37,036 bases of DNA from a virus, in IMG/VR virus record IMGVR_UViG_3300024320_000845, positions 1-37,036 of that record. The stretch is one strand, 5' to 3'. Positions 9,755 to 25,781 of this stretch are shown here, in pieces. Both the position numbers and the translations under genes were made by a program. The number at the start of each line of letters is the position of its first letter. Within the stretch, counting starts at the first letter, position 1. The notes below the pieces were generated by a model. It was given only the letters and a program-made list of their open reading frames with translations. It was not told the origin of the DNA and ran no database searches.

Positions 9755-12255
9755 TGTCGGATCGGATCACCACCAGCCTGGAACGCCTTTTTGACGAGCA
9801 TCGTATCGTCTTTTGGTATGACGCAGCACGCGACATGCGGGGAGAGTTCGAGGCAGTCGATTTGGCTGGTGTGACAAAGGTGGAAGTCGCCAACAACCAG
9901 TTTGGGCTGAAACATCGGATGCTGCGGCAGGAGCCGACGGCAAAGTTTCTGGTGTTCCATGATGGGCCTGAGCCTGAGAATGCCGCGAACTGGCTTTTGG
10001 ACGTGCAGTTGGCAACGGCAGTTTTCAAGGCGGATCAAGCCGGCATCTGGCTGGGTGAGCTGGGCCTGCCGCCACAGTTCGAAAGCGTCGTGCGCGATCA
10101 CCTGGAGTTTTATCGCTCTAAGGTGCGCGTGGCGGAGCTTAAACGGCTATTGCATGCGGCAGATACGCAGTCCCAAGTGCGGCTGCGCATGCTCGCCGTC
10201 TGTGCCGGTGCTGAGGGTGGGCTTGATACAGTTGTCGAGGCACTCCTTGGCGAATTAGCCGATGGCAGTGAGGATGCGATGCGGCTCATTGAGCGATCCG
10301 GCCTGACCGAGGTGTTTTGGAAGCAGGTTGGAAACGCCTATGGCTATCAGCCGGACCAGCCTGATCTGGAGGATTTTGCGATCGCGCTCTTTCAGTCGGC
10401 GTATCAGCGGGCGTTGGGCGAAGATGGCAAGCTGAGCGCTGAGGCTCTTCTGGTTTTCCGGCGCTGGAAGAACAATCGCCACTGGGAAGTGGCGTTCGAG
10501 ACGCTTGCTGCTCGCTATCAGGCCTTGCTGAAGATTCCAGAAGATTTGTCCAAGCGCGACTTCCGCGCAGTCATGGCCATCGATCATTTCGAGGAAATCG
10601 ACCGCCATATCATCCGCCAACTGGTGCACGCGATGTCGACGCAGACGGTCAGCGCGTCTGAGGTCCTGAAATGGGTGCGCGAACGCCGGCAAAGCCATTG
10701 GTATGGCACTTATGAGGACATCTATCAGGCGATCGGATTTGCCACAGAATTCCAGCAGGCGCTGGCAGAGGCCAACTTGGGGATGACGAGCCCTGCCGAA
10801 GGGGTGAAGCGCTATGTGAGCAGCTGGTACAAGCTCGACCAGCTCTATCGCAAATTCATCTACCATATGCAGCGCAGCGGCCATGCCTCGCTGCTTTCGG
10901 AACTCTACGAGGCGGTTGAGAACCGGTATACTAATAGCTTCCTCTTGAAGCTGAATGATGCCTGGCAGGATCAGGTTGCCGGACTGACCGACTGGGCAAT
11001 CCCCGGCTACGCAAGCCAAAGCGCCTTTTATATCGAACAAGCCGCAGAGTTTCGCCGTCGCGATCAGAAGGTCGTGGTCATCGTTTCAGATGCCTTACGT
11101 TTCGAGGTGGCCGAGGAATGCCTACGCCGCATCCGGGCATTGAACCGATTTGATGCGGAGCTGAAGCCCATGATCAGCGCGCTACCCAGCTATACCCAGC
11201 TCGGGATGGCGGCACTTTTGCCAAACCGTGACCTGTCTTTCGCGCCTGATGGCGGCGGATCGGTACTTTCGGGAGGCGAAAGCACACAAGGCCTTGCCGC
11301 GCGCGAAAAGATCCTGGCAACGGGACGTGCAGGCGATCGCGCCAAGGCTCTATCCGCACGGGATGTTCTCGATATGCGGGTCGATGAAGGCAAAGAGCTC
11401 TTCCGCGACAATGACGTGGTCTACATTTATCACAACCTGATCGATGCGATTGGCGACAAGCTGCAGACCGAGGATCAGCTGCCCAAGGCTGCCGAAGACG
11501 CGATCGAAGAGCTAACCAAGCTCGTTCGAAAGCTGACCTCGGCGAATTTCTCGAACATCCTGATCACGGCAGATCATGGCTTCCTTTTTCAGCACCGAGT
11601 GTTGGATGAGAGCGACTTTGCTGTCGCCGATCCCAAGGGCGAAGAAATCCTGCTTCGTAATCGCCGCTTCGTCATCGGTCGTGGTCTCGAAGAAACCGCG
11701 GGCATGAAGAAGTTCAGCTCGGCGAACCTGGGCCTGGCGGGCGACCTCGATGTCCTGATCCCAAACTCGATAAACCGCCTACGCGTTAAAGGGGCGGGCA
11801 GCCGATTTGTGCACGGTGGCGCCTCACTGCAGGAAATTGTTATTCCCGTCCTCCGTGTCGGGAAACAGCGCGAAGCGGATGTGAACCAGGTTGAGGTGCA
11901 GATCATCGTATCTGGCCGCAGCCAGATCACTTCTGGGCAAACGGCTGTCATCTTCTACCAAGCGCAACCGGTGTACGAGAAAATGCAGGCGCGTGAGCTG
12001 GTCGCGGGGATCTATGCTGCCGACGACACGCTGATTTCAGACGAGCATGTTCTGCAGTTTGATTTTACCTCGGACAACGCCCGTGAACGCGAAATGCCTC
12101 GGAAGTTCCTGCTATCGCGTGAGGCGGACAAATTCAACAACCAAGACGTATTCCTTAAGTTGCGTCAGCCATACGGCAAAACGAGCCGCTTTGAGGACTA
12201 CACAAGCCACCGCTTCCAGTTGAAACGTGGCATAACAACAGATTTTGACTTTTAA
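9754..12255 (+). CDS. pglZ: BREX phosphatase-fold protein PglZ
   Basis: PglZ is the alkaline-phosphatase-superfamily protein of BREX, and it works with PglX, BrxB and BrxC. The PglZ domain lies in the second half of this 833-residue protein. It has a metal-binding-type strand VVVIVSDALRFEV with D446 and a second motif ITADHGFLFQ with D607/H608, both in the order expected for the superfamily. The N-terminal half is helical and lacks motifs I recognise. The ATG at 9754 overlaps the pglX-2 stop (TGATG); a TTG three bases upstream is in frame but less likely. It is followed after 11 bases by the BrxL-like gene, which has its own Shine-Dalgarno. Length and position agree with type 1 BREX. Confidence 0.93.
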   Translation: MSDRITTSLERLFDEHRIVFWYDAARDMRGEFEAVDLAGVTKVEVANNQFGLKHRMLRQEPTAKFLVFHDGPEPENAANWLLDVQLATAVFKADQAGIWLGELGLPPQFESVVRDHLEFYRSKVRVAELKRLLHAADTQSQVRLRMLAVCAGAEGGLDTVVEALLGELADGSEDAMRLIERSGLTEVFWKQVGNAYGYQPDQPDLEDFAIALFQSAYQRALGEDGKLSAEALLVFRRWKNNRHWEVAFETLAARYQALLKIPEDLSKRDFRAVMAIDHFEEIDRHIIRQLVHAMSTQTVSASEVLKWVRERRQSHWYGTYEDIYQAIGFATEFQQALAEANLGMTSPAEGVKRYVSSWYKLDQLYRKFIYHMQRSGHASLLSELYEAVENRYTNSFLLKLNDAWQDQVAGLTDWAIPGYASQSAFYIEQAAEFRRRDQKVVVIVSDALRFEVAEECLRRIRALNRFDAELKPMISALPSYTQLGMAALLPNRDLSFAPDGGGSVLSGGESTQGLAAREKILATGRAGDRAKALSARDVLDMRVDEGKELFRDNDVVYIYHNLIDAIGDKLQTEDQLPKAAEDAIEELTKLVRKLTSANFSNILITADHGFLFQHRVLDESDFAVADPKGEEILLRNRRFVIGRGLEETAGMKKFSSANLGLAGDLDVLIPNSINRLRVKGAGSRFVHGGASLQEIVIPVLRVGKQREADVNQVEVQIIVSGRSQITSGQTAVIFYQAQPVYEKMQARELVAGIYAADDTLISDEHVLQFDFTSDNAREREMPRKFLLSREADKFNNQDVFLKLRQPYGKTSRFEDYTSHRFQLKRGITTDFDF

Positions 12256-12266
12256 GGAGCGGCCCC

Positions 12267-14390
12267 ATGAGCGATCTCGACGCTAGGATCAATGAACATT
12301 TCGCGGGCTTTGTCGTGCGCAAGGACCTAGTGAAGGCGGTCAAGGGCAACGCGATCGTTCCGACCTATGTGCTCGAGTATCTCTTGGGTCAGTATTGCGC
12401 CACCGACGACGAGGCGTCGATCGCGACTGGAATCGAGACCGTCAAAGAAATCCTGCGTAAACACTACGTCCACCGCAGCGAAGCGGGGCTTACTCAGTCG
12501 ACGATCAAGGAAAAGGGGCGCTACAAGGTCATCGACCAGATCAGCGTGTCGTTGAACGAGAAGACGGATAGCTATGAAGCCACCTTCGACAATCTCGGCA
12601 TCAAGAAGGTTGCGGTCGACAGCGGCACGATCAAGGCGCACCCGAAGCTACTTGTGACGGGCGTCTGGTGTATTGCAGACGTGCAATATGAGTATTCCGA
12701 AGATGCGCGCATTTCGCCTTGGATCCTTGAAACCATCAAACCCATCCAGATCGCCAAGGTTGACTATGAGGGCTACCGGGAGGCGCGGGGCAGTTTCAAC
12801 ACTGACGATTGGATCGACCTGCTGATGCAGAGCATCGGGTTCAACCCGGAAGCTTTTGGGCGTCGGGCGAAGCTCTTGCAGTTGATGCGCCTGATCCCCT
12901 TCGTGGAACGGAACTACAACATCATCGAGCTTGGGCCCAAGGGCACGGGCAAGTCGCACATCTATTCGGAGTTTTCGCCGCACGGTCAGCTGATCTCGGG
13001 TGGTGAAGTGACGATCCCTAAACTCTTTGTGAACAACTCGAACGGGCGCATTGGCCTTGTCGGCTACTGGGATGTCGTAGCCTTTGATGAATTTGCCGGC
13101 CGCGAAAAGACAGCAAACAAAGCGCTCGTCGACATCATGAAAAACTACATGGCCAACAAGACCTTCTCTCGGGGTGTAAATCCCATGGGAGCTGAGGCCA
13201 GCTTCGCGTTTGTGGGCAACACAGACCACAACGTGCCCTTCATGCTCAAGAACAGCGACCTCTTTGAAGCCCTACCGCCGCAATTCCATGACTCGGCCTT
13301 CATTGATCGCCTGCATGCCTATTTGCCAGGCTGGGAAATTGATGTGATCCGGGGTGAGATGTTCACAAGTGGGTATGGTTTTATTGTAGATTATCTCGCT
13401 GAAATGTTGCGCCATCTGCGCCAGGAAGATTTCTCCAACCGGCCGGACCAGCATTTCAAAATCAGCGAGAAGATTTCAACGCGGGATCGGGATGCGATCT
13501 ACAAGACGATGTCGGGCCTGCTAAAGCTGATCTTCCCGAATGGCGGTGAGACGGCGGAAGATGTCGAAGAGCTGATGCGCCTGGCAATGGAAAGCCGCAA
13601 ACGGGTCAAAGACCAGTTGGCGCGGATCGACAGTACATATCCTGAGGTCGATTTCCACTACCTTGGCACAGATGGGACCAAGCGCCGTGTGACTACGGTC
13701 GAGGAAGAAGAATACCCGCAGTTCTACCACCTCAAGCCCGCGCTGGATCCCAAGGAGCAGGAACAGTCAGAGATGTCAGGTGGTGGGGCCACATCTGTCG
13801 CTGAAGAAGGGGCCTCGAAGTCTCGCCCCGTTTCGGAGGGGGCGCGCCCTGACAAAGCAGAGGCGAAGCCCGTTCTCGAAGAAGGCCACCATGTCTTCAC
13901 AGAGGATCGCAAGGGGATCAGCTACGATCGGCTCTTTGGCCCTTACATCGAGGGCGCGTCAAAGATCATTGTGACGGACCCTTACGTTCGGTTCTTCTAC
14001 CAGATCCGCAATATGATGGAGTTTGTTGAAATGGTCATTCGGCGAAAGTCGCCTGAGGACCAAGTCAGCGTTCATCTCGTGACTGGGCCAGATGACGGTA
14101 ATGTAGGCAAGCAACGCGAATTGCTCGACTCGATCGTAGACGCATGTGTTGGCTCGGGTGTTGAATTTACTTGGGCCTTTGATGGCTCAGGAACAGCGCA
14201 TGCGCGCGATATCATTACGGATACTGGGTGGAAAATCGTTCTCGATAGAGGACTTGATATCTTTCAAGCACCTTTGAAAACTGGTGGGTTTTCGCTCAGT
14301 GACCGATTGCAGGAGCAGCGGATTATCAAGGGTTTTTATGTTACTTTCGTTAAGAACGAAACGGGTGACGTCTCGAAACACTCACAGTAA
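12267..14390 (+). CDS. brxL: BrxL-like AAA+ protein with a C-terminal MIT_C (PLD-like) domain instead of a Lon domain
   Basis: BrxL is the last core gene of type 1 BREX. Known members are AAA+ proteins with a C-terminal Lon-protease-like domain and act in phage exclusion, not in methylation. This 707-residue protein has Walker A GPKGTGKS (223-230), Walker B VAFDEF (D274/E275) and a helical region to about 490. A low-complexity charged linker (about 490-545) follows. The last about 155 residues do not look like Lon: a run YDRLFGPYIEGA, then TDPYVRFFYQIRN, and HARDI (H645) followed by GW and DRGLDIFQ match my memory of the MIT_C domain of eukaryotic MITD1. The start is set by AAGGAG seven bases upstream of the ATG. 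The functional effect of the domain exchange is unknown. Confidence 0.85.
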   Translation: MSDLDARINEHFAGFVVRKDLVKAVKGNAIVPTYVLEYLLGQYCATDDEASIATGIETVKEILRKHYVHRSEAGLTQSTIKEKGRYKVIDQISVSLNEKTDSYEATFDNLGIKKVAVDSGTIKAHPKLLVTGVWCIADVQYEYSEDARISPWILETIKPIQIAKVDYEGYREARGSFNTDDWIDLLMQSIGFNPEAFGRRAKLLQLMRLIPFVERNYNIIELGPKGTGKSHIYSEFSPHGQLISGGEVTIPKLFVNNSNGRIGLVGYWDVVAFDEFAGREKTANKALVDIMKNYMANKTFSRGVNPMGAEASFAFVGNTDHNVPFMLKNSDLFEALPPQFHDSAFIDRLHAYLPGWEIDVIRGEMFTSGYGFIVDYLAEMLRHLRQEDFSNRPDQHFKISEKISTRDRDAIYKTMSGLLKLIFPNGGETAEDVEELMRLAMESRKRVKDQLARIDSTYPEVDFHYLGTDGTKRRVTTVEEEEYPQFYHLKPALDPKEQEQSEMSGGGATSVAEEGASKSRPVSEGARPDKAEAKPVLEEGHHVFTEDRKGISYDRLFGPYIEGASKIIVTDPYVRFFYQIRNMMEFVEMVIRRKSPEDQVSVHLVTGPDDGNVGKQRELLDSIVDACVGSGVEFTWAFDGSGTAHARDIITDTGWKIVLDRGLDIFQAPLKTGGFSLSDRLQEQRIIKGFYVTFVKNETGDVSKHSQ

Positions 14391-14438
14391 AATTAAGCCT
14401 AAGGGCTGCTTTAAGTGCATTACCGTAAGAGAGAATTG

Positions 14439-17400
14439 ATGGAAGAGATACAACGGTCCCAAAATTTATCGGCACTCCTCGATGATGCGCGTCGTCGCCT
14501 CGTTGAAACAGGAACTCGTAACCGATTGGTGCATGTGAATAGATCAGCTAAGCGGGCCAATGCGCTTGATGTTGTAGAAGAGCGCAGTGCTGACATCTAC
14601 AATCTGCTAAAATCTAATGGCAAGCGCATGCGCTTTCTGGCGCGTGACGAAGAAGAGCCCGATGAAGAGGTTGAAGTCGACGGTCCAATCTTAGCCTTAG
14701 ATGAAGACGACGGCTCAGATCGTGAGGCTAGGTACCTGGATCTCTTTCTTGAAACGCGTCTGGGCCAAGAGGCCTTACAGCGCCGTCTGTTGCGTTTGTT
14801 CACAGATGCTAGGACTTCCGAAGAGGAGCAGGGTGTTAACATCCTTTATCTGGCAATGGGATTTTTACGCTGGTTCGAAAGTGACAATTCCGAAACCCTA
14901 AGGGAGTCACCGTTGATCTTACTGCCGGTAGAGTTGGTGCGAGATGAGCGTCGGGCAACGTTCAACTTACGGGCACGTGATACAGAAATTGTAACCAACT
15001 TGCCGCTGCAAGAGCGATTGCGGTCAGATTTTGGGCTCGAATTGCCGGAGATTTCTGAGGATGAAACGTTTTCCCCTGAAATCTATTTTGACGAGGTTGC
15101 AGCGCGCATCGAAGGTCGAAACCGTTGGACGATTGATCGTGATGGTATGCAGCTTGGATTCTTCTCGTTCTCTAAGCTCTTGATGATGCGAGACCTTGAG
15201 CCAGAACAATGGCCAGAAGGCGCATTTGAGGATCACCCAGTTCTCGGTGGACTTCTTGGGGGCGGGTTCGAACGGTCTGAACCGCTTTTTGGTCCTCAGG
15301 AGCCGCTTGACCCTCGGCTTGCTCCGTCTGATTTGCTGCATGTCGTACCAGCGGACGCGTCACAAACTCGCGTTATCGAGGAAGTTCGTGCGGGACGAAA
15401 TCTCGTTGTTCAAGGACCGCCAGGAACAGGCAAGTCGCAGACAATTGCGAACATCATCGCGGGCGCTGCCCATGACGGCAAGACCGTGCTTTTTGTCGCC
15501 GAAAAGATGGCAGCGCTTTCGGTCGTGCATGATCGATTGCAGAAAATTGGCTTGGGCGACCTGTGCCTTGAGATTCATTCACGCGCTGCAAACAAGAAAG
15601 TATTTCTAGAGGAACTCGCTCGAACGTTAAATGCTGGGCGAGCAATTCCTGAACTGCCTGAGGCGCCAGATGCTTTGCGTGAGGCCAGAGATAAGCTGAA
15701 TAGTGTGAGCGCTCAATTGCATGAGCCCGTCTCTGGGCATGGATTTACACCGTATAGGGCGATGGCAGAAATCGCACGTTTTGTAGGAATGGAGATGCAG
15801 CCACCAAGGCTTGCACGTGGCGGGTTGGCCGATCTTGACGATGCAACCCGAAAAAATCTTGCAGAGCGTGTATCAACCTATGTGGACCTACTTAAAACAG
15901 CTGGTCCTCGGTTGAACCACCCATTTGCGGGTGTTGGCTCAACGAGATTGCAGCCAACCGACCTTCAACGGCTGGAGCCTGATCTGCGTCAAGTGTCCGA
16001 GGCAATAAAGAAGTTGCAGGCGACGGCCTCGCATGTGGCAGTGTTGGCGCATCGACCGGAACCCTCCACACTTTTGGAATGCATCAGCTTGCGAAACCTT
16101 CTGCGCGCGGCGGTGCAAAGGCCAGCAGATGCCCAAGAGGCGAGCGCGGCGCTGCTGTCGCAAGTGCATGATGCTCGGCTTCAAGAAGCTCTTGGCGCGG
16201 GCCGCGCCTGGATCGAAGCGCGGGAAGCGGCAAGCACGCGTTTTGAGGAGCCGGCGTTTGGGATACCAGCCGATACGTTACGAGGCAAATTGGCACCTGG
16301 CGTGAGTTCGGTCTGGGCGAGGCTCTTCGGCACCTATCGTGGTGCCAGCAAAGAAATCGCTACGGTTTTAAGTGGTCCCTTACCCAGTGCACCTGCAGAT
16401 CGTCTGCAGCTTGTTGATGAATTACTTAGCGTTCAGCAACGCCGCAAAGAGTTGTCCGATGAGGAAAGCTGGCTGAAAGAGGTCTTGGGGAGCGCGTGGC
16501 GTGGCGAGCGAACCCCTTTCACAGCGCTCTTAGCACAGGCTGAATGGCTTGGCCAAATGGCTACGATCGTCCCGTCCGCTGACGCTGAAAGTCTTGAGCG
16601 CATTAGCGCTGCAGCAGACCGTGAAGCTGAATTGAGCGCAGCTTTGGATGGCTTGGGCTTGGTTTTGGACCCACTTGTTGCAAGGCTTGAGATCAAGTGG
16701 CCGGAAGGTGACGATATTTCCCTCAAAATGCTGGTGCAGCGGACAGATGCCATGTGCGTTGCTCTTGATCGTTTCGGCGAATGGGCTCGTCTCACACATC
16801 TTTCTGCTGAACTGCAGAGCAGTGGCCTTGGGTCCTTAGTTGCCATGTTGGACGCAGGCGAGCTTTTGCCTGAAAAGGCAGTTGACGAATTTCTTTATGC
16901 GACCGCTGAAGCGCGATGGGAAACAGCGCGCAATCTATTTCCAGGCCTAGACGAGCTGGCTTATCTTGATCGACACGCGCTAGTTGAGGCCTTTCGCGGT
17001 CTTGAGGTGGAACGTCTCGCCGAGACCAGACGACTTGTTCGTGCTAAACATTTAGCGCAACTGCCCACAGGCGCTGCAGGCCAGATGGGCTTCTTGCGCG
17101 GAGAGATGGCCAAGAAACGTCGGCATCGGCCTATCCGTCAAATGATGAAAACTGCCGGGCAGATGGTTCAAAGGATTAAACCGGTTCTTCTCATGAGTCC
17201 TATTTCTATCGCGCAGTATTTGCCTACGGGGGCCGCAGAATTCGATCTTTTGGTTATCGACGAGGCCAGTCAGGTGCGGCCAGAAGAGGCGCTTGGCGCG
17301 ATTGCGCGTTGCAACCAAATTGTTGTGGTCGGCGATCAGAAGCAGCTTCCTCCTACCAGCTTTTTTGACAGGGTCGCTGGCCCTGATGAAGCGGATTTAG

Positions 17401-19112
17401 ACGAGGAGGCAGAAGATGAGGTTCGTACGGCGACTGCGACGGAAATGGAGAGCGTTCTGACGCTCTGTGAAGCCCGCGGCCTCAATCCAGCAATGCTAGA
17501 ATGGCATTACAGGTCACGCGATCCATCACTCATTATGGTGAACAACGCTGAGTTCTATGATCACCGTTTGATCCTTCCGCCGTCGCCAGTTCAAAATGAT
17601 CCGGAGTACGGGCTCGCCTTCCAGCGCGTGCCTGGCGTCTACACGAGCCGGTCTCGCGGATCAGGTCGGCCAGGCACTAATCGGATTGAGGCAGAGGCCG
17701 TGGCAAAGGCGGTCGCTGAACATGCGCGCAACCGTCCAGACCTTTCCCTGGGTGTGGTCGCCTTCTCTAAGGCACAATCTGACATGTTAACTGAGGTGTT
17801 CGAAGTCGCCCGGCGCCAAGACGAGATCCTAGACGACTTCCTACGTGAGGGACGTGCCGAGGACGTGTTCGTCAAGAACATCGAAAACGTGCAGGGCGAT
17901 GAACGCGATGTGATCCTGATTTCGGTGGGGTATGGTCCGGCCGAGCCAGACGGGCGCCTTACGTCGATGTCGTTCGGGCCCGTGAATGGTGAGGGCGGTG
18001 AGCGGCGCTTGAATGTTCTCTTCTCGCGCGCCCGGGCGCGCTGTATCGTCTTCTGCTCTTTTGATCCCAACGACATCGATACCAGTCGAACCAGTCGTGA
18101 TGGGCCAAGAGTCCTCAAGCGGTTCCTCGAATTTGCGCGTAGCGGGCAGATAGCCCAGCCACAGGCGACAGGTGAGTTACCTGACAGCCCGCTCGAGTCC
18201 GATGTGGCTAACGTAATTAAGGGTCTTGGCTATCCTTGCGATTACCAGGTCGGAGCTGCCGGATTTCGGATCGATTTAGGAGTGCGGCACCCTGACCAAC
18301 CTGGCCGCTATATTCTCGCCGTTGAATGCGATGGTGCTACCTATCACTCTGCACTCTGGGCCCGTGAACGGGATCGCCTTCGCCAGGATGTCTTGGAGGG
18401 TCTTGGTTGGCGTTTTCATCGGATCTGGAGCACGGATTGGTTCCACCGTCGGGGGGCAGAAATTGACCGCCTTAAAGCGGCGCTTGAAACTGCGGCAAAT
18501 GCTTCGGGGCCAGAATCATCTGGTGCTAACGCTGGAGGGCTAGCGGCTCCTGTTGAGGAAGCTGTGACGGATAACTCACCCACAGCAATATTACCGCCAC
18601 CACCGGAGCATTTTGCTCCAGCTTATGAACTGTCGAATGCAAATGTGAATATGGACGTGGAACCTCACGATGCACCAATCAATGTGTTGGTCGATCTGGT
18701 GAATAAGATTGTCAATGATGAGGGGCCTATCCACAGGGCATTGATCGCGCGCCGGGTCGCTTCAGCTTTTGGGAAATCGAGAACAGGAGGGCGCATACAG
18801 GATGCATCAAATCAGGCTCTCAACCGAGCAGCAAAAACTACAGGTCTCATAATGGATGGAGACTTTGCTATGACGGATGCCCAGCGTGACGATTGCCCGG
18901 TAAGAGATCGATCAGGAGAAGGTGCACCGACGAAAGCTGATCTTATCCCTCCACTTGAGATACGTGCTGCGGCTGCTCAGGTGATTGCCGAAAGTGGGGA
19001 AATGTCCCGCGAAGATCTCGTTGTTTCGATAGCACGCACTCTCGGCTTTGCTAAGACTGGTAGGGAGCTGCAAAGCTACATTGAAAAGGCGCTTCCCAAA
19101 GGGTCATTGTAA
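14439..19112 (+). CDS. DUF4011/DUF3320-type SF1 helicase with fused Vsr-like endonuclease
   Basis: A large nucleic-acid-dependent ATPase of 1,557 residues. Superfamily 1 motifs appear in order: Walker A GPPGTGKS (326-333), Walker B VIDEAS (DEAS 941-944), VVGDQKQLPP (motif III), EWHYRS (motif IV), NVQGDERDV (motif V) and LNVLFSRARAR (motif VI, about 1190). About 600 residues of helical insert separate the first two motifs. A PD-(D/E)XK/Vsr-like nuclease follows (about 1250-1345), with LESDV, RIDLGV and AVECDG as probable active-site strands. Two DUF3320-like winged-helix units close the protein (about 1410-1557). Proteins of this design are common in defence islands, but their action is not well known. 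The ATG at 14439 is preferred for its purine-rich leader; an in-frame GTG lies at 14415. The gene reads less GC-rich than the BREX genes, suggesting a separate origin. Confidence 0.85.
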   Translation: MEEIQRSQNLSALLDDARRRLVETGTRNRLVHVNRSAKRANALDVVEERSADIYNLLKSNGKRMRFLARDEEEPDEEVEVDGPILALDEDDGSDREARYLDLFLETRLGQEALQRRLLRLFTDARTSEEEQGVNILYLAMGFLRWFESDNSETLRESPLILLPVELVRDERRATFNLRARDTEIVTNLPLQERLRSDFGLELPEISEDETFSPEIYFDEVAARIEGRNRWTIDRDGMQLGFFSFSKLLMMRDLEPEQWPEGAFEDHPVLGGLLGGGFERSEPLFGPQEPLDPRLAPSDLLHVVPADASQTRVIEEVRAGRNLVVQGPPGTGKSQTIANIIAGAAHDGKTVLFVAEKMAALSVVHDRLQKIGLGDLCLEIHSRAANKKVFLEELARTLNAGRAIPELPEAPDALREARDKLNSVSAQLHEPVSGHGFTPYRAMAEIARFVGMEMQPPRLARGGLADLDDATRKNLAERVSTYVDLLKTAGPRLNHPFAGVGSTRLQPTDLQRLEPDLRQVSEAIKKLQATASHVAVLAHRPEPSTLLECISLRNLLRAAVQRPADAQEASAALLSQVHDARLQEALGAGRAWIEAREAASTRFEEPAFGIPADTLRGKLAPGVSSVWARLFGTYRGASKEIATVLSGPLPSAPADRLQLVDELLSVQQRRKELSDEESWLKEVLGSAWRGERTPFTALLAQAEWLGQMATIVPSADAESLERISAAADREAELSAALDGLGLVLDPLVARLEIKWPEGDDISLKMLVQRTDAMCVALDRFGEWARLTHLSAELQSSGLGSLVAMLDAGELLPEKAVDEFLYATAEARWETARNLFPGLDELAYLDRHALVEAFRGLEVERLAETRRLVRAKHLAQLPTGAAGQMGFLRGEMAKKRRHRPIRQMMKTAGQMVQRIKPVLLMSPISIAQYLPTGAAEFDLLVIDEASQVRPEEALGAIARCNQIVVVGDQKQLPPTSFFDRVAGPDEADLDEEAEDEVRTATATEMESVLTLCEARGLNPAMLEWHYRSRDPSLIMVNNAEFYDHRLILPPSPVQNDPEYGLAFQRVPGVYTSRSRGSGRPGTNRIEAEAVAKAVAEHARNRPDLSLGVVAFSKAQSDMLTEVFEVARRQDEILDDFLREGRAEDVFVKNIENVQGDERDVILISVGYGPAEPDGRLTSMSFGPVNGEGGERRLNVLFSRARARCIVFCSFDPNDIDTSRTSRDGPRVLKRFLEFARSGQIAQPQATGELPDSPLESDVANVIKGLGYPCDYQVGAAGFRIDLGVRHPDQPGRYILAVECDGATYHSALWARERDRLRQDVLEGLGWRFHRIWSTDWFHRRGAEIDRLKAALETAANASGPESSGANAGGLAAPVEEAVTDNSPTAILPPPPEHFAPAYELSNANVNMDVEPHDAPINVLVDLVNKIVNDEGPIHRALIARRVASAFGKSRTGGRIQDASNQALNRAAKTTGLIMDGDFAMTDAQRDDCPVRDRSGEGAPTKADLIPPLEIRAAAAQVIAESGEMSREDLVVSIARTLGFAKTGRELQSYIEKALPKGSL

Positions 19113-19708: not shown

Positions 19709-20932
19709 TCAATCTAGTTGCTCTACCCCAACCACCACCATCCCGGTCAAATGCGACACTGCCGCCATCATGATCCCCATATTAAACGCAAACTCGTTGG
19801 CGCAGCTTTGCTTGAAGAAGTCGCCCTCGAGGAACATGCAGGATCCTTTGCAGAGTTGGACGACGGGGCACGACATGCACTCGTCTCGGAAGGCAAAATG
19901 CGTCGCGGTAGTGAGTGCGATCGCATCAATGTCATCAACATGGCCGATCTTGTGCTCACCCTTCGCCCCTGTGTTCTGGCAGGTCATGACGTTGCCGCGC
20001 AGATCAACGGCGATCGTGTCTTCTCGATCCATACCGCACTTTTGGCCTAGCGCCTCAATGGGTCTTTGCCGCTGGATCGAGGCGTAAAATTCGTCGATCC
20101 GCTCGCCCAAGCCAAAAGCATTCGGGTCCTCAACCAGGGCTTCAAAGATTGACCGGGTAAGTCTGTTTAGCTCAGTTGTTTCAAACCGCCCTGTGCCAAT
20201 CGCGGTCGCAGCATCATAGACGTTCACAACGCCCTCGAGGCCGACGTGGATACCCGATCCCACCCGATCCGCAAACCAGGCCTTCAGCGCCTGTAGATCA
20301 TGATGCTCCCGTGTCAGCACCGCGTTAAAGCCTACCTGGTCTGCGCGCTCGGCCAACAGGGCTTCAATCCAAGCGCGCGTTTCGGGATCATCGAACGGAT
20401 CGGGCCCGCGCAGATGCTGACCGGGCCCGTCATGGGAGATTGTTATTGCGATGTCATGCGCGGCAATGAAGTCCAGCTTTTCGCGGTTGAGAAGAGAACC
20501 ATTGGTAATGATCGAGAAGCAGGCACCGGGAAAGCGCGCGGCCAGAGCCGGCACTAAGCGTTTAATCTTGGCCCAATACAGAAACGGCTCGCCGCCCCAG
20601 ATTTCAATTTGCTCTGGGGCTTGCGTGATCCAGCCGTCAAGCTGGGTTAAGAAGTGTTCCACATCGGCAAGCTTTGAGACCGTCGCATCCTCAATCTGGA
20701 AGGCCTGACTGCAATAGCTGCAGCTATAGTTGCACGAGAGCCCGAGCTGGATTTTCAAAACACGCGGTGCGCGGGATTTGCCCAGGGGCTGGTCTTTTGC
20801 CACACGCGGGACAGACGCGAACTCTCCGGGATCGACAGGCAGGGGCAGCCCTTCGCATTCTGAAGTGTGGGTGTTGTAGCGCAGAGTTTGCTGGGCACCG
20901 TCACGGGCCTCTAGGGTCAATTCAAACCACAT
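19709..20932 (-). CDS. Radical SAM/SPASM enzyme at the end of the tail-fibre cluster
   Basis: A 407-residue radical SAM protein. The CxxxCxxC cluster motif is C67, C71, C74 and the GGEP motif is at 113-116. The C-terminal end has SPASM-type cysteines: C299 and C318 (pattern C-x13-G-x4-C), then C352, C355, C361, C365 and C377 (C-x2-C-x5-C-x3-C-x11-C). The last spacing is shorter than the usual x17. SPASM enzymes carry two extra Fe-S clusters and mostly modify peptides or proteins, for example sactipeptides and sulfatase maturation. The ATG overlaps the stop of the 2OG oxygenase gene (TGATG), so the two are coupled. The first 55 residues are not radical SAM and show no clear peptide-binding RRE fold by eye. 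I infer that the substrate is the Cys-rich peptide (21567-21863) or a nearby fibre; this is untested. Confidence 0.88.
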   Translation of the reverse strand: MWFELTLEARDGAQQTLRYNTHTSECEGLPLPVDPGEFASVPRVAKDQPLGKSRAPRVLKIQLGLSCNYSCSYCSQAFQIEDATVSKLADVEHFLTQLDGWITQAPEQIEIWGGEPFLYWAKIKRLVPALAARFPGACFSIITNGSLLNREKLDFIAAHDIAITISHDGPGQHLRGPDPFDDPETRAWIEALLAERADQVGFNAVLTREHHDLQALKAWFADRVGSGIHVGLEGVVNVYDAATAIGTGRFETTELNRLTRSIFEALVEDPNAFGLGERIDEFYASIQRQRPIEALGQKCGMDREDTIAVDLRGNVMTCQNTGAKGEHKIGHVDDIDAIALTTATHFAFRDECMSCPVVQLCKGSCMFLEGDFFKQSCANEFAFNMGIMMAAVSHLTGMVVVGVEQLD

Positions 20933-21564
20933 CAGTCAAAGAGCCTTTCTTCAAGCGCGTCGGGCAGGTTGACGCGGAAGTTCGCGACGACCTGCACGTG
21001 GGGCGTGCTCCCCTGATAGGGGTGCTGGTTGTGAGGGATATGCGACGGGAAGAAGACCGAGAGCCCTGGTCGCGGATTAACCGAGAAGCCATGCCGCGCC
21101 TCGAAGGGCAGCCGTCCTTCGTCGAAGTAACGCGATGGGTCCTCGATCACGAAGCGGGGATTGCCAACTGAGTTCACCAGTTGCCCCGCACCACTTCCCG
21201 TCAGGAAGTGGACGCAGGTGAGATCCCCCTCGCGGCTGTCCTTGTGGGTCGAGATGAAGCCACCAGGCTCGATGACGAGGGCGCGGTTTTCGCAGTGGTC
21301 GGGGTCTAGATAAGAAGCCCATTCACCAAGGAAGGATCGAGCACAATCAAAAAGGTGCGCCTTGAGCGCCTGGCCTGCCGCGCTCCAATCCAAAATCCCG
21401 CGGACCCGCCGCTTGGACGCGCTGCGCGCGTCTTTGGTGTCCATCTCTCCAACGGCTGCTATCGCTTCCTCCGCCAGTTGGCGGTTCACCTCCCAATCCC
21501 CGGGCGTTTCAAAAAAGCTGATATGGGTGGGCCATAGCTCACAGCTGGTCTTGCACACCTCCAT
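20932..21564 (-). CDS. 2OG-Fe(II) oxygenase, second of two
   Basis: A 210-residue protein with the double-stranded beta-helix signature of Fe(II)/2-oxoglutarate oxygenases. HxD is H107/D109 in ISTHKDS after an EPGG turn, the distal histidine is probably H178 in FPSHIPHNQHPY, and R198 in VVANFRV is a good candidate for 2-oxoglutarate binding. Such enzymes hydroxylate proteins or small molecules. The ATG at 21564 lies two bases behind the stop of the Cys-rich peptide gene; an in-frame TTG at 21579 is a poorer start. The gene ends TGATG with the radical SAM gene. The substrate is unknown; in a fibre cluster, proline, asparagine or aspartate side chains of fibre proteins are the natural guess. 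Confidence 0.8.
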   Translation of the reverse strand: MEVCKTSCELWPTHISFFETPGDWEVNRQLAEEAIAAVGEMDTKDARSASKRRVRGILDWSAAGQALKAHLFDCARSFLGEWASYLDPDHCENRALVIEPGGFISTHKDSREGDLTCVHFLTGSGAGQLVNSVGNPRFVIEDPSRYFDEGRLPFEARHGFSVNPRPGLSVFFPSHIPHNQHPYQGSTPHVQVVANFRVNLPDALEERLFD

Positions 21565-21566
21565 CC

Positions 21567-21863
21567 TCAGCACCGGCAATTGCAGTTACAATTAAAACTA
21601 TAGCGATTGGCTGTAACGGTCACCGCCCCAGAGGAGCCTCCGCCTGAGAGGCTATGAACCGTACAATTCGCCACGCAGTTACAATTTCCACCGTGCTGGT
21701 AAATGACTCTCGGCCAAACTGACCCTCCAGATGTTGGGCTGCCGTTGCTTACCGTCACAGAGGTAATATCGCCTGTCCCAATGGCGGGTTTGTTTTTGAT
21801 GCGCGACCAATCCACTCGACCGCTGTCATCGATCACGATGGTCGTTCCAACCTTATAGGCCAT
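21567..21863 (-). CDS. Fibre-like peptide with Asn-Cys repeats (7 Cys), candidate modification substrate
   Basis: A 98-residue protein. The start is set by AAGGAGG four bases upstream of the ATG; a longer open frame upstream is a shadow of the neighbouring oxygenase gene. Residues 1-30 (YKVGTTIVIDDSGRVDW followed by RIKNKPAIGTG) look like the opening of phage tail-fibre trunk modules. The rest is Gly/Ser/Thr/Val-rich. Cysteines occur only in two clusters: C61, C63, C67 and C92, C94, C96, C98 at the very C-terminus. Most are preceded by Asn (N60, N62, N66, N91, N93, N95), giving the ending NCNCNCRC. It overlaps or abuts a 2OG oxygenase gene on each side, followed by the radical SAM gene. It may be a precursor for modification (RiPP-like), or a fibre tip held by disulfides or a metal. 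I recognise no family for the C-terminal part. Confidence 0.75.
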   Translation of the reverse strand: MAYKVGTTIVIDDSGRVDWSRIKNKPAIGTGDITSVTVSNGSPTSGGSVWPRVIYQHGGNCNCVANCTVHSLSGGGSSGAVTVTANRYSFNCNCNCRC

Positions 21864-22593
21864 GAGGGCCTCCTTGTGCCTGATGGGCCAGGATCTCGGT
21901 GAGCCCCGCCTTGCAGTGAGAATTAGGAAGATCGAGGGAGCAAAGGACCGGAATGCACATCCGCTCCTCGCCCTCAAAATACGTGCTGTCATGGGGCACA
22001 TGGCCCTCGAAGACAATCATGGAGCCCGTCTTGGGCTCCACCGCATACCAGCCGCCGACATAGGCGTCGGGGTTGTTGCAGGGCCACAGCCGCTTGCCGA
22101 CGTTTGCCGGATCGTAGAAGCGTACCGAGCCCCGATGGAGCGAGGTCTCCGGGCAATCCGCATCCAAGACCACTCGTGGATAATAAGTGCACACGATATC
22201 GGTCTGCATATGGGTGTGGGTGTTAATCCCGACGTTTTCCTTCTCAGCCCGGCGCTGCCAAAACGTGTCCGACATCATCGAGATATCCCCGGTGTGTTCG
22301 TACCCATAGGCCAGTTGCAGGTACTCTCTCACCGCAGCCGCAACCATTTCAGCGAGGGCTGCAAGTGCAGGGTCCTGCCGGTCCATCAGGAAGTTGTGGC
22401 GCAAATGACCGAGGTGATTGGTTTGATCGCCCACATTGCGGCCGTCGTCCGCGTCATTGATGCGGTTGGCCACCGCGTCCTCGGCCGCCAATGCGTAAAG
22501 CCGGTCATTGAACCCCTCGGGCATTTCCCAATGCTTGTGCATCACGAAGGCCGGGTAGATCATCTGCATCTCAGTGGTAGTTTCGATCTCCAT
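21853..22593 (-). CDS. 2OG-Fe(II) oxygenase, first of two (TIGR02466-like)
   Basis: A 246-residue protein resembling the putative 2OG-Fe(II) oxygenases found in marine bacteria and phages. The probable iron site is in NTHTHMQTD (H126/H128 and D132), then a strand of YYP type, and a distal histidine in HVPHDSTYF (H198 or H201), with R211 as candidate 2-oxoglutarate ligand. Which His pairs with the metal cannot be settled by eye. The ATG at 22593 overlaps the stop of the 303-residue gene (TGATG); an upstream TTG adds one residue only. Its 3' end overlaps the start of the Cys-rich peptide gene by 11 bases. Only about 20% of residues seem shared with the second oxygenase, so this is not a recent duplicate. 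Confidence 0.75.
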   Translation of the reverse strand: MEIETTTEMQMIYPAFVMHKHWEMPEGFNDRLYALAAEDAVANRINDADDGRNVGDQTNHLGHLRHNFLMDRQDPALAALAEMVAAAVREYLQLAYGYEHTGDISMMSDTFWQRRAEKENVGINTHTHMQTDIVCTYYPRVVLDADCPETSLHRGSVRFYDPANVGKRLWPCNNPDAYVGGWYAVEPKTGSMIVFEGHVPHDSTYFEGEERMCIPVLCSLDLPNSHCKAGLTEILAHQAQGGPHGL

Positions 22594-23504
22594 CAAACGA
22601 CCTCCAGGAGGATCTTGCCGATGGCTGTGTAATGTTCGGTGTTCACCTTCACGGCGATCTGATCGCCGGGGCTGAGGCCAAGCGCTTCAATCGCAAAACT
22701 GCTCACACCCTGCTCATCCGTTACCAATCGTCGTTTGGGCAAATAGCCTGCGTCGCTCTCTAGCTTCAGCGCCAGTTCATAGGCGCAGGGCGCGCTATCC
22801 CCATTCCAGAATAGCGCAATCGGCACATCAACCCGGCCGCCAGCAGGCACTGAAAGAGGCGCCCCACCTGATGCATCTGCGTGGAAGTAGAACTGTTTAA
22901 ACCACTGTCCGTCGTTTGGGATCGTCGCATCATCAATCCGCCCCGCTACACGCGTTCCGTTCAGCAGGATTGGTTCCTGCTCACACAGTACTTCCACACG
23001 TGCGTTCGACAGGGTACCGGCGATGGGCATGAAGACCACCAAAGCGTTGGAGCACTGTGTTCGGGCCCTATGCCGAAAGGAAAAGTCCACTTTTTCGCGC
23101 GCCGATTGTGCAAAGCGGTTCCGCCAAGGAAGTGGAAACCCCGCCTCGTTGGTCATGATGTCGATGAGCGCATAGTGGGTAATTTCATCATGGCCGATCA
23201 TTCCATCCAGGAACACGTAGGATCGGCCTTTATAGATCGCGCCATAGTTCAGGCCCGGAAGGTCTGGAATAAATACGCCGTTCCCGCGCATATCGACAAA
23301 GCCTGCTGCATTTGAGCGATCATAGGGTATCTCAAGTTCGGTTTTCAGCTCTGCCCATGGCAGTGGCTCGATACCAACGCGCTGTCCTTCGCCATTCTCG
23401 CAGGGATCGAAGACGGCGATACCCGCATAGCTGTCTTGGACATCGACGGCGTAATGCAGGCGCGAGCCTGTGTTATAGATGACATGCAAACCTGTCTCGA
23501 TCAT
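22593..23504 (-). CDS. Unknown 303-residue protein of the fibre cluster
   Basis: I do not recognise this protein. It has no signal peptide, membrane segment or collagen repeat. It is rich in beta-prone runs and turns, with segments such as [15 protein letters not shown] and [11 protein letters not shown] that resemble Ig-like or carbohydrate-binding sandwiches. The start overlaps the end of the collagen-like fibre gene (23501) by four bases, and the end overlaps the oxygenase gene (TGATG). It therefore belongs to the same translation chain. A role as receptor-binding tip or fibre-attached domain is an inference from position only. Confidence 0.7.
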
Positions 23505-24559
23505 TTCGCGGTCCTTTTGAGCTGCTCGACCTCCTCCGAGAGGTCTTTGATTGCTTCGACGAGAAGCCCGACGAGGTTGCCGTAAGCCAGGCGCAACAGG
23601 CCTTCTGCCTCGACGACGGCCTCGGGGGCGACAGCCTGCACATCTTGGGCGATCAAACCCATTTCTCGGCTTCCGCCCTCGATCATGTCATAGGTAACGC
23701 CTCTTAGAGCTTGCACCTTTTGAAGAGCGCCAGAGATTGATGTGACCTTTGTTTTCAGCCGCGCGTCAGAAGACGACACAAAGTTCGGTGCTGTGACAGT
23801 GCCCGAGAAAGTGGCGCCTGAAAGCCGAGCAAACGAACTCGCGTGCAGGCCATCCAGCTTGTCGGCATCAATGCCCGAACCAGACCCATCCACGGTTTTG
23901 AGTTTGTCGCGCACTTGCGCGGCGGTGTCGGGTGATCCGTTAGCCCCGGCGGGTCCTTGAGGCCCAGCCGGGCCGGTGGCACCAGTTGCCCCCGCAAGCC
24001 CTCGTGGGCCTGTTGGTCCTGCGGGGCCTGTGGCGCCTTGGGGACCCGCTGGACCCGTGGCACCGGTATTACCAGTGTTACCCTTGGGACCGGTAGCTCC
24101 TGTGGCCCCTTTGAGGTTCACATACGACCCCCAGGCCGTTCCGGTGTAGAACCGCAGACTTGTCCCAGACCACTGATGCGCAGGCGTTGGACCAGTGGCG
24201 CCCGTAGCACCTTGTGGCCCGGTGCTCCCGGTGTTGCCCTTCGGACCTGTTGGACCTGTTGGACCTGTTGGACCTGCGGGGCCCTGTGGTCCGCTAGGCC
24301 CGATCTCACCCTGTAGTCCAGTAGCTCCTGTCGCCCCCGTATTTCCTTTGGGCCCTGTTGGCCCACGCGCACCCGTCGGCCCCGCTGGTCCTTGTGGCCC
24401 AGTCTGTCCCAGCTCCACCACGCTTTCCGACCCAGAAACGCGTTTCAAGAACAGCTTTCCGTCGGTGACATTCATTGCCAACTCACCTGGGGCCAGCTGC
24501 GCCGTGCTCGGCACCCGGCCCGCGACCGTCGTGCGTTTGACCAATACGGTATTCGCCAT
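23501..24559 (-). CDS. Tail fibre with collagen-like repeats and C-terminal S74 chaperone domain
   Basis: A 352-residue fibre protein. Residues 1-50 form an attachment module with the pattern [17 protein letters not shown], shared with the next fibre upstream. Two collagen-like Gly-X-Y blocks (about 54-125 and 151-219) flank a short insert ([14 protein letters not shown]). A short linker leads to a Peptidase_S74 intramolecular chaperone (about 250-352), with the self-cleavage-type site SSSDARLK (S254/D255). It is followed by a C-terminal coiled coil ([17 protein letters not shown]). The S74 domain trimerises the fibre and is then cut off. The nucleotide sequence holds perfect 9-base tandem repeats within the first collagen block, so its length may change by slippage. 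The gene starts two bases after the stop of the upstream fibre gene. Confidence 0.9.
24243..24278. repeat. 9-base tandem repeat (GGACCTGTT) in the collagen-like fibre gene
   Basis: Three perfect copies of GGACCTGTT are followed by a fourth altered copy (GGACCTGCG). On the minus strand they encode Gly-Pro-Thr triplets. Gain or loss of one unit keeps the frame and changes only the length of the collagen rod. Confidence 0.85.
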
Positions 24560-24561
24560 GA

Positions 24562-25545
24562 TCAGAAGGTCCCCCCATCCAGAGCAATCCCGGTGATCGA
24601 TCCACCGGTGATTGCGACATTGCTGGAGGCTTGCGTGGCCATTGACCCAAGCCCAAGGTTTGACCGGGCTGTCCCCTTATTGGGTAGATCAGACAGGTTT
24701 GAGCCCGCCGCCAGTTTGCCCGCCAGAGCATTGGTCACTGAGCTCGCAAAGTTTGGATCATCGCCCAGGGCTGCCGCCAATTCATTGAGCGTGTTCATCG
24801 CACCGGGGGCAGCATCAATCAGCGCAGCAATCGCTGCGGCGACAAATCCCGTGGTCGCAATTTGCGTCGTATTCGTCCCGGTAGAGGCCGTAGGCGCCGT
24901 TGGGGTGCCGCCAAAGGCTGGCGAGGTCAGTGATGACTTCCCATTAAGTGCGCTTTGCAGCCCGGTGACCTGCGCAATCGAATGGCTATGGCTGGAGGGC
25001 GTAAAGCTCGTAGGCTTACCGGTGATGCCTGACCAAGGCACAGCATCGGCCACTTCTGCGGCATCCACCTTACCATCACTGTCACTATCATAGGTGGAAC
25101 GGGCCATATCGCCGGCCCCAAAGCCCACAATTGCGTCATTGACGAAGGCGGTGGTTGCGATCTGCGTGGAGTTGGTGCCGGCCACTGGGGTTGGCGCTGT
25201 CGGAGAACCGCTAAACCCAGGCGAAGCCAAAGGCGCTTTGCCTGCGAGTAAAGCATCGAGCTGGGACTTGCGCACAAGGTCCGTCCCGTCGCTTGCGTCT
25301 TGGCTCGACTTTGGGACCAGTGAGAAAGTCTTGGTCCCAGCGATGCTCTGACTGCCCACACGGGTGACAAACCCACCAGAGCCTGCCATGGGCACAATCG
25401 ACGTGGCATTGCCTGCACCATCATCGCCTTTGCCGACATAGAGCGTGTCATCAACCTCGTTATGAGCAAGCTCGCCCGATTTTAGGGCGGCCGGCGCGCC
25501 GGCGACGCCCGAGACGCGGCGCTTGAGTTGAATGGTATTGGCCAT
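24562..25545 (-). CDS. Phage tail fibre with duplicated fibre module and EF-hand-like loop
   Basis: A 327-residue fibre. The N-terminus shares MANT(I/V).LKR and a .[16 protein letters not shown] module with the following fibre. Two copies of a typical tail-fibre repeat are present (about 106-141 and 206-240), with the pattern (S)P.F.G.PTAPT...GTN(S/T)TQIATT.FV. Between them lies [12 protein letters not shown] (D143, D145, D147, D151, E154), a dockerin/EF-hand-like Ca2+ loop. The C-terminus has a LGLGSMATQ segment common in fibre ends. The ATG at 25545 overlaps the stop of the small collagen-like gene (TGATG); the longer open frame upstream is a shadow. Likely a structural fibre; no catalytic motif. 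Confidence 0.88.
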
Positions 25546-25781
25546 CAGAAGAAGCCTCCGTTGATAGGTGTGTCTGTGGGAAGAATGGTGATGCCAGGAT
25601 CGCCTTGATCGCCCTTGTCGCCTTGAGGACCGGTTTGGCCGTCCGGACCTGGGGTGCCCAAAAGCCGGATGCGTATGGCCCCCGTGGCAATGCGGATTTT
25701 GATGGGCGCGGCGCCGGAAGACCCACTGGGCCCCAAGCTGGGGAATGGCGCGCGCGCGCTCTGTGTAGGACAAGCACTCAT
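25545..25781 (-). CDS. Small collagen-like tail protein
   Basis: A 78-residue protein with a beta-type first half (APIKIRIATGAIRIRLLG) and a short collagen-like stretch (about residues 43-64, G.PGPDGQTGPQGDKGDQGDPG pattern), ending in a hydrophobic INGGFF tail. It overlaps the gene before (25778) by four bases and the fibre after it by TGATG. Probably an adaptor or short spike that joins the baseplate to the fibre; this is an inference from order. Confidence 0.75.
   Translation of the reverse strand: MSACPTQSARAPFPSLGPSGSSGAAPIKIRIATGAIRIRLLGTPGPDGQTGPQGDKGDQGDPGITILPTDTPINGGFF

Follow-up and report, generated by a model that had tools for sequence, protein, structure and literature searches.

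A phage-borne radical SAM and oxygenase cassette that may rebuild a cysteine ladder at the tip of a tail fibre

The virus contig analysed here (record IMGVR_UViG_3300024320_000845, positions 1 to 37,036; the whole stretch of 37,036 bases is referred to as the window) possesses a tightly packed cassette coding for a radical S-adenosylmethionine (SAM) enzyme with a SPASM domain, two putative 2-oxoglutarate (2OG)-Fe(II) oxygenases and a cysteine-rich protein of 98 residues. The latter ends in a run of alternating cysteines, termed here the ladder. Ladders of this type recur on viral contigs together with the same kind of radical SAM enzyme, and this genomic association is strongly supported by the sequence comparisons described below. 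The cassette is considered moderately likely to serve the maturation of a fibre tip, in which the ladder would be chemically rebuilt by the phage-borne enzymes.

Association of the ladder with a radical SAM enzyme

An earlier reading of the DNA without database searches (the sequence-only reading) had linked the cysteine-rich protein to the radical SAM enzyme as its substrate from gene order only. This link now draws support from a test that is blind to the enzymes. A DNA pattern for NCNCxCxCxC was scanned over viral contigs, giving at least 120 loci, at 111 of which the ladder lies in an open reading frame (ORF); the same pattern with scrambled codon order had one match in the collection. A radical SAM gene is present in the fetched stretch of 88 of the 111 ladder loci listed, on the same strand in 88/88 and with a median gap of 1181 bases. 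Searching the whole contigs of the other 23 gave 11 more with a match to phrog_1802, each at 4e-54 or better (at a loose 0.001 this family matches all 14 control genomes). The total is 99/111 of the loci listed, as opposed to 0/120 in a collagen control. The control loci were chosen likewise by a GPPGPPG stretch and are richer in proline codons, hence in GC; radical SAM (E-value 0.001) and 2OG genes were each found in 0/120, while in the same comparison the ladder-pattern loci listed have a radical SAM gene (at 1e-10) in 89/120 and a 2OG gene in 49/120. The radical SAM profile was built from loci L001-L106 (retrieved loci carry the prefix L), which had been found by the radical SAM enzyme or the window peptide, with the pattern loci left out. 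As regards the last 12 ladder loci, eight (L131, L132, L139, L143, L158, L180, L182, L222) lie just 161-1400 bases before the downstream end of their contig, and in four (L171, L200, L221, L224) the ladder is of low complexity, at least 26 residues from the C-terminus and probably a chance frame.

A second, asparagine-poor pattern (ACDCACDC) gave 15 loci. A plausible ladder was found in eight of these, four of them with a radical SAM gene in the stretch, and a fifth (L436) lies on the contig of L037, which has one. The other seven were chance-looking and were dropped from the count.

The association was also followed from the enzyme, with the best 80 of 180 radical SAM relatives in viral contigs. 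All 17 close loci have the order 2OG gene, ladder peptide, 2OG gene and radical SAM gene. The 63 more distant loci (36-50% identity) possess a ladder of at least four cysteines in 48 cases (L019 being doubtful), a three-cysteine ladder in seven and neither in eight, with a 2OG gene nearby in 30/63; this brings the 80 loci to 65 (again with L019 doubtful), seven and eight, respectively. Locus L019 looks degenerate: serine replaces the third radical SAM cysteine, and the ORF counted as its ladder is doubtful. In five of the eight ladder-less loci the radical SAM gene starts no more than 70 bases into the stretch, which leaves the upstream region out of view. Another two (L076 and L078) show 2.1 and 3.6 kb of upstream sequence, and in L077, which is similar by gene lengths, the ladder ends approximately 3.7 kb upstream. 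The last, L044, is ladder-less despite ample sequence, its nearest candidate being a protein that ends in CNCAGGACDCG.

The sequence-only reading had suggested looking for homologues of the peptide without the enzymes, and these are few. Among 25 viral loci with a relative of the peptide, a 2OG gene lies just upstream in 25/25 and a radical SAM gene is present in 20/25. Four of the five without the latter (L086, L091, L099, L100) end 167-674 bases after the peptide start, with the radical SAM gene expected at approximately 0.9 kb. The fifth, L101, runs on for 1192 bases. Its radical SAM gene (L101 6887-7193) is regular for some 60 codons, beyond which it diverges from the family and encounters a stop, a break or an assembly joint; the divergence may be due to a rearrangement or an insertion, or to such a joint.

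Bacterial and archaeal genomes were scanned with the radical SAM alignment, one genome for each of 84,980 species, and 80 of 213 relatives were kept. A ladder of at least four cysteines is found in 53 of these 80 (L370 being doubtful) and a 2OG gene in 50. No ladder was seen in the stretch of 23/80, several of which are fragments by their lengths and positions.

The 98-residue ladder protein

The protein has seven cysteines: NCNCVANC (residues 60-67) contributes three and the terminal NCNCNCRC (residues 91-98) the other four. The cysteine count of the sequence-only reading stands, whereas its two clusters are not a conserved feature: in an alignment of 20 homologues, the window's included, the first cluster is missing in 4/20 (L101, L103, L104, L106) and reduced in L085, L087 and L092, while the terminal ladder is kept in 20/20 with NCNC invariant. 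On this alignment, the terminal ladder is the conserved part and the first cluster is dispensable. Six ladder codons were compared and all vary synonymously, the sole amino acid change being asparagine to alanine between two cysteines. Such synonymous variation with near-fixed residues points to selection on the ladder at the protein level and not to a simple DNA repeat. Together with the gene order, which is the same in 17/17 close relatives of the window cassette on viral contigs, it argues that the cassette is not a product of chance.

The N-terminal segment, MAYKVGTTIVIDDSG..W.RI, is largely invariant like the terminal NCNC. It had been taken for a tail-fibre module, for which no family match was found; apart from the ladder, no part of the peptide is better conserved. 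In the manner of precursors of ribosomally synthesised and post-translationally modified peptides (RiPPs), the protein is encoded by a short gene beside a maturase-like gene and has a cysteine-rich C-terminal segment. It has no significant match to a tail-fibre family.

Radical SAM/SPASM enzyme

The last gene of the cassette codes for what is, by its domains, a member of the radical SAM superfamily with a SPASM domain. It matches Pfam Radical_SAM (PF04055, 38 bits, cut-off 29.5), NCBIfam SPASM (TIGR04085, 32.3 bits, cut-off 27) and phrog_1802 (E-value 5e-58), and possesses the CxxxCxxC motif at residues 67-74 (C67-x3-C71-x2-C74). The seven SPASM cysteines (299, 318, 352, 355, 361, 365, 377) are invariant in 27/27 aligned relatives.

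An AlphaFold2 model built from 27 sequences has a predicted local distance difference test (pLDDT) value of 94.5 and a predicted template modelling score of 0.90. Its nearest solved fold (Foldseek, VIA-align) is CteB (5wgg; Z 23.6 over 355 residues, root-mean-square deviation 4.1), followed by ChlB with its precursor leader (9gm3; Z 22.3), the anaerobic sulfatase-maturating enzyme anSME (21.5), TigE (18.5) and SuiB (15.2). The match to SkfB (Z 15.1) is level with viperin-like enzymes. The neighbours other than the viperins act on peptides or proteins. A fold shared by a model does not prove the reaction.

Relatives of the enzyme are rare among phage records. Of 50,697 such records, 25 match, of which three, from two phages, do so at 80% cover or more with 37-39% identity; three further radical SAM queries of the same records gave only those same three at 1e-20. 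The two phages are the cultured Achromobacter phages JWF and 2-1. A Variovorax relative (L369, 45% identity) lies beside a YcaO-nitroreductase protein and a 71-residue peptide with a CGC motif (L369 3290-8275), and from its gene content this locus looks like a cellular RiPP cluster.

2OG-Fe(II) oxygenases

Both oxygenases match phrog_81 (E-values 2e-11 for 2OG-A and 6e-7 for 2OG-B), while their scores against PF13759 (26.2 and 16.7 bits) are under the cut-off of 27. In alignments of ten sequences each, H127 and H202 are invariant and R212 nearly so in 2OG-A, and H112 and H183 are invariant in 2OG-B, which has an HKD motif in the window protein. The invariant histidine pairs and the near-invariant arginine of 2OG-A are as expected for the 2OG fold. 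When the first oxygenase was used as a sequence query against the PDB, none of the matches was a convincing relative.

The oxygenases, which the sequence-only reading had included in the combination, are not obligatory: a 2OG gene is found in 48/111 ladder loci listed. Since phages JWF and 2-1 have no 2OG gene within the 19-kb stretches seen, the 2OG enzymes are, as judged from gene content, accessory to the pair of ladder and radical SAM enzyme. The composition of the ladder X positions with and without a 2OG gene (aspartate 9% vs 16%) is confounded by lineage and was not used. Passages of two papers (PMC11288001, PMC7029224) assign phage 2OG enzymes to DNA repair or the modification of nucleic acids.

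Organisation of the window and host

The packed cassette of 2OG gene, cysteine-rich peptide, 2OG gene and radical SAM gene was confirmed at the position first described, with all genes on the minus strand (Table 1). In the direction of transcription, the order is tail fibre, collagen-like fibre, 303-residue protein, 2OG-A, the cysteine-rich peptide, 2OG-B and the radical SAM enzyme, and from the 303-residue gene onward the junctions are overlaps of 1 to 11 bases or a 2-base spacing. The peptide gene runs from its ATG at 21863 to the stop at 21567 and shares 11 bases with the end of 2OG-A; an AGGAGG stands just 5' of the peptide gene. The ATG of 2OG-B lies 2 bases past the peptide stop and the radical SAM gene overlaps the stop of 2OG-B by one base. 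The 303-residue protein (22593-23504, minus strand), without a Pfam, PHROG or NCBIfam match at 0.1, is possibly a fibre part.

Table 1. Features of the cassette and its neighbours in the window
Feature	Position	Strand	Remarks
Radical SAM/SPASM enzyme, 407 aa	19709..20932	-	phrog_1802, Pfam and NCBIfam matches
2OG-Fe(II) oxygenase B	20932..21564	-	ATG at 21564; TTG alternative at 21579; phrog_81, E-value 6e-7
98-aa protein, putative substrate	21567..21863	-	N-terminal module MAYKVGTTIVIDDSG..W.RI, middle, C-terminal cysteine ladder
Terminal ladder NCNCNCRC, putative modified segment	21570..21593	-	NCNC in 20/20 homologues
First cysteine cluster NCNCVANC, optional	21663..21686	-	Missing or reduced in some homologues
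2OG-Fe(II) oxygenase A	21853..22593	-	ATG; TTG alternative at 22596; phrog_81, E-value 2e-11
303-aa protein	22593..23504	-	No recognised family; between collagen-like fibre and cassette
Collagen-like fibre with C-terminal S74 chaperone domain	23501..24559	-	Pfam Collagen 72.5 bits, Peptidase_S74 56 bits
Tail fibre protein	24562..25773	-	PHROG tail fibre families, best E-value 9e-48

The twelve closest radical SAM relatives in the genome scan (L350-L361) have 79-86% identity over most or all of their length. They belong to Marivita, Marinibacterium, Thalassovita, Nereida, Thalassobacter, Thalassobius, Pseudorhodobacter and one Rhodobacteraceae bacterium, the genera being members of the Rhodobacteraceae. 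The window is therefore most likely, on this sequence affinity, from a phage or prophage of that family. Thalassobacter stenotrophicus CECT 5294 has three complete cassettes (L357, L358, L361).

Near the start of the window (31-14390, plus strand), there is a BREX-type defence operon coding for BrxC (its 5' end cut by the window), two successive PglX methyltransferases, PglZ and BrxL. It lies on the opposite strand to the cassette and may be phage or host flank. Directly after it lies the gene of a 1565-residue protein (14415-19112, plus strand), nearly all of which is covered by a match to the candidate defence family PDC-S37.

Ladder proteins and tail fibres

Ladder ORFs were clustered with the ladder removed, using single-linkage BLASTP at 1e-3, which placed 244 of 245 (one being too short) in 13 clusters. 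This clustering is rough both ways, as it joins differently built proteins and leaves at least one singleton, L037, that by eye looks related to L031 of another cluster. Among the 110 ORFs of the largest cluster are L049, a T7-type tail fibre that contains collagen repeats, the collagen fibre L113, the fibre of phage JWF and other PHROG tail fibres; the window protein falls in a cluster of 59 ORFs. The suggestion that the modified product is part of a fibre is supported in the largest cluster by recognised tail fibres, while for the window's own cluster the argument is one of position next to fibre genes.

The ladder lies at most five residues from the C-terminus in 88/113 ladder ORFs of the pattern set. 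In 194 distinct ladder ORFs, a set that is partly pattern-selected and includes some doubtful ORFs, it has 4 to 11 cysteines, is C-terminal in 148 and is followed by a Hint-like motif in 17. The 825 X positions of the ladders are mostly asparagine (464, a share inflated by the NCNC pattern), alanine (167), aspartate (100) and arginine (32). In the JWF fibre the ladder reads ...NCNCDCNCNCS, directly followed by CFPAGTMVLMADG..., and phage 2-1 is similar. JWF gp28 matches Pfam Hom_end_hint from residue 308, the last ladder cysteine (47.5 bits, cut-off 32.1), and four other proteins with a Hint-like motif (L024, L037, L413, L039) are below the Hom_end_hint cut-off or unmatched. Hint domains cut themselves off. 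The ladder would thereby become the C-terminus, converging with the majority design, and this suggests that a final position at the tip is required of the ladder.

Other arrangements were also observed. Three successive ladder proteins with different bodies occur at L150 6202-7114, L152 9632-10544, L179 4251-5182, L167 5156-6517 and L441 2603-3982, as if one phage made several modified tips. Repeats of the QKCQTCQGC type precede an NCNCDCNCNC ladder at L112 2383-2754, L124 211-582 and L173 13487-13930 (all minus strand); these proteins adjoin more distant radical SAM enzymes and are perhaps a separate branch. A third architecture has an internal ladder and then a segment like SKI[IV]C.KL..G.....I..ADQ.YG (L043 7299-8174, L075 7482-8378 and similar), and the ladder gene of L043, which has no Pfam or PHROG match, overlaps the end of the radical SAM gene. 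Lastly, very large proteins of up to 2081 residues have the ladder mid-protein (L038 1-5661 and L195 1-3144, on the same contig, and L132 3914-10159), approximately 590 residues from the C-terminus and with no Hint-like motif just after it; L038 matches phrog_358, a family of unknown function.

Proposed maturation and alternatives

In the proposed model, the 98-residue protein would serve as a small subunit of the tail fibre or of the fibre tip, with the ladder, in which asparagine or arginine alternates with cysteine, as its last eight residues. The SPASM enzyme would act on the ladder while still in the infected cell, either ahead of virion assembly or in its course, and that the ladder is its substrate is very probable. 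The enzyme would most likely join the cysteine sulfurs to carbons of the neighbouring asparagine, alanine or aspartate (thioethers, with a loss of 2 Da each), and every ladder cysteine has an asparagine, alanine, aspartate or arginine neighbour; thioethers are on balance the bond we favour. The 2OG oxygenases, where present, would add hydroxyls, most simply on asparagine or aspartate of the same segment. Hydroxylation of these residues appears the most likely activity, because 2OG genes accompany ladders and there are none in the collagen control, and the chance that they act on the ladder is put at about even. The preferred product is a ladder of cysteine-neighbour pairs zipped into a compact rod, which would give the fibre end an adhesive tip that is compact, oxidation-proof and protease-resistant. 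It is somewhat favoured that the window protein belongs to the virion and functions in receptor binding or tip stability. Taken more widely, the data lean towards a dedicated and widespread radical maturation, by which a portable (N/A/D)C tip ladder, present on proteins that differ in build, would be turned into a cross-linked, possibly metal-loaded and possibly inter-chain tip, often hydroxylated by 2OG enzymes. The occurrence of radical SAM cassettes in a host-recognition cluster of pelagimyophages, described in passages of one paper (PMC7029224), fits this fibre-tip reading.

Several observations weigh against it. The window enzyme is below every NCBIfam cut-off for characterised peptide maturases among the matches listed. 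For the window peptide, none of Pfam, PHROG and NCBIfam gave a match below 0.001, the best PHROG match (0.0047) being to a family of unknown function, and a tblastn search of the 50,697 phage records was also without a match. Its AlphaFold2 model is of low confidence (pLDDT 58, falling to 38 in the last block, which is the ladder) and is too weak for a fold search. Nearly all ladder proteins that match tail-fibre families belong to one of the 13 clusters, and ten ladder proteins taken for other clusters (their cluster was looked up for most, L136 and L150 excepted) have no tail-family match: in the PHROG search nine were without a match at 0.001, and the families that L038 matched are of unknown function. 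Of ten ladder proteins compared with NCBIfam, nine were without a match and the tenth weakly matched an intein-type model. Some relatives, in Ramlibacter, Variovorax and Magnetospirillum, are not fragments and have no ladder in the stretch seen, and the oxygenases are found in fewer than half of the 111 ladder loci listed. Finally, many viral contigs are near-duplicates, so that counts such as 99/111 are of non-independent events.

The main rival is a metal ladder, considered unlikely, in which the cysteines would lie on one beta-strand face of a trimer and bind a column of metal, like the HxH of the T4 gp37 tip; the radical SAM and 2OG enzymes would add or tune ligands (for example beta-hydroxy-asparagine or -aspartate), and the tip may use metal-uptake receptors. 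The CxC alternation mirrors HxH, which passages of one paper describe in phage fibres along with a Trojan Horse idea (PMC11705849). Ladders have up to 11 cysteines and are C-terminal in most ORFs. A plain metal site, however, needs no radical SAM enzyme, with which 99/111 of the ladders listed go, and AlphaFold2 gives the ladder no structure. Cysteine thiols also oxidise in aerobic water unless protected, which counts against bare metal ligands. Such a metal site could be combined with the covalent model.

Alternatively, and with similarly low probability, the radical SAM enzyme modifies the ladder and the 2OG enzymes hydroxylate another target, such as the prolines of the collagen-like fibre (23501-24559). 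The window has this fibre upstream of the cassette, and passages of a survey state that phage 2OG enzymes resemble the prolyl hydroxylase EGLN3 (PMC12774648). Collagen is slightly commoner at ladder loci with a 2OG gene (33/146) than at those without (10/82; Fisher p 0.077), which leaves room for an effect on neighbouring collagen and is a further point against the proposed model. Opposed to this are the lack of any 2OG gene in the 120 collagen control loci, the 113/146 ladder loci with a 2OG gene that have no collagen in the stretch, and the position of the window peptide gene between two 2OG genes, one of which it overlaps. It is improbable that the peptide is instead a free secreted modified peptide, a bacteriocin or lysogenic-conversion factor outside the virion. 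Its small size, the lack of a fibre-family match for it and of tail-family matches for ladder proteins of several other clusters, and the cellular enzyme relative in a YcaO cluster would agree with this. However, no export or protease gene was recognised among the window genes matched in the Pfam, PHROG and NCBIfam scans, ladders of the largest cluster sit on large fibres of T7-type and collagen-like kinds among others, and the window gene follows fibre genes in one operon. It is most improbable that the enzyme is an auxiliary metabolic gene of the anaerobic sulfatase-maturating type to which the ladder is unrelated: anSME is among the nearest folds and GenBank labels the JWF gene a sulfatase-maturating enzyme, but the score against the anSME equivalog TIGR03942 is 43.3 bits for a cut-off of 349, and 99/111 of the ladder ORFs listed travel with the enzyme.

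Should the fibre-tip model be true, phages build modified structures resembling RiPPs into the virion, at its point of contact with the host. A class of phage radical SAM genes would thereby be explained, some of the phage 2OG oxygenases would gain a function, and there would be a new enzymatic way of making protein tips that are stiff and cross-linked or that carry metal. As two isolated Achromobacter phages and named strains such as T. stenotrophicus CECT 5294 carry the system, it is directly testable in culture.

Comparison with known systems

Peptide maturation by SPASM enzymes is already known; its use on virion fibres would, if shown, be a new kind of virion maturation. In the open-access literature, as covered by titles and abstract openings (with subscription journals and preprints outside this scope), no cysteine ladder with a radical SAM enzyme was found on phage fibres. 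The association may seem undescribed because only 3/50,697 phage records hold a relative of the enzyme at 80% cover or more.

The CteB/SCIFF maturases (TIGR03974; 5wgg, 5why), which form thioethers from cysteines of a ribosomal peptide, have the nearest fold to the window enzyme (Foldseek 6e-15) and likewise combine radical SAM and SPASM domains. They differ in having 19% identity to it, in a score of 34.3 bits against a cut-off of 425, and in their substrate, a short leader-core peptide where the window candidate is a fibre-like protein. QhpD (TIGR03906) of quinohemoprotein amine dehydrogenase, which the window enzyme matches with 53 bits (cut-off 453), is a radical SAM enzyme that cross-links a structural protein subunit, with the difference that its substrate is a subunit of an enzyme.

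The best NCBIfam match of the window enzyme is the ranthipeptide maturase PapB (NF047865; 66.4 bits, 2.6e-18), far under its cut-off of 340. Passages of one paper describe PapB as linking cysteine sulfur to the C-beta of aspartate across 0-6 spacer residues, incompletely at 0 and 6, in a nested or in-line manner (PMC9413430). This tolerance of spacers, as given there, fits a ladder in which cysteine is next to asparagine, aspartate or alanine, although the PapA motif is CX3D and not (N/A/D)C repeats and PapA is not part of a virion. The phage 2OG oxygenases of phrog_81 are matched by both window oxygenases, which here accompany a peptide-maturase-like enzyme. Hint (hedgehog/intein) domains lie at the ladder end in some ladder proteins; the window has none, and its ladder is encoded at the C-terminus to begin with. 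The HxH iron needle of T4 gp37 and related tips share with the ladder the alternation of ligand residues in a fibre tip, with histidine instead of cysteine and with no maturase mentioned in the passages concerned (PMC11705849).

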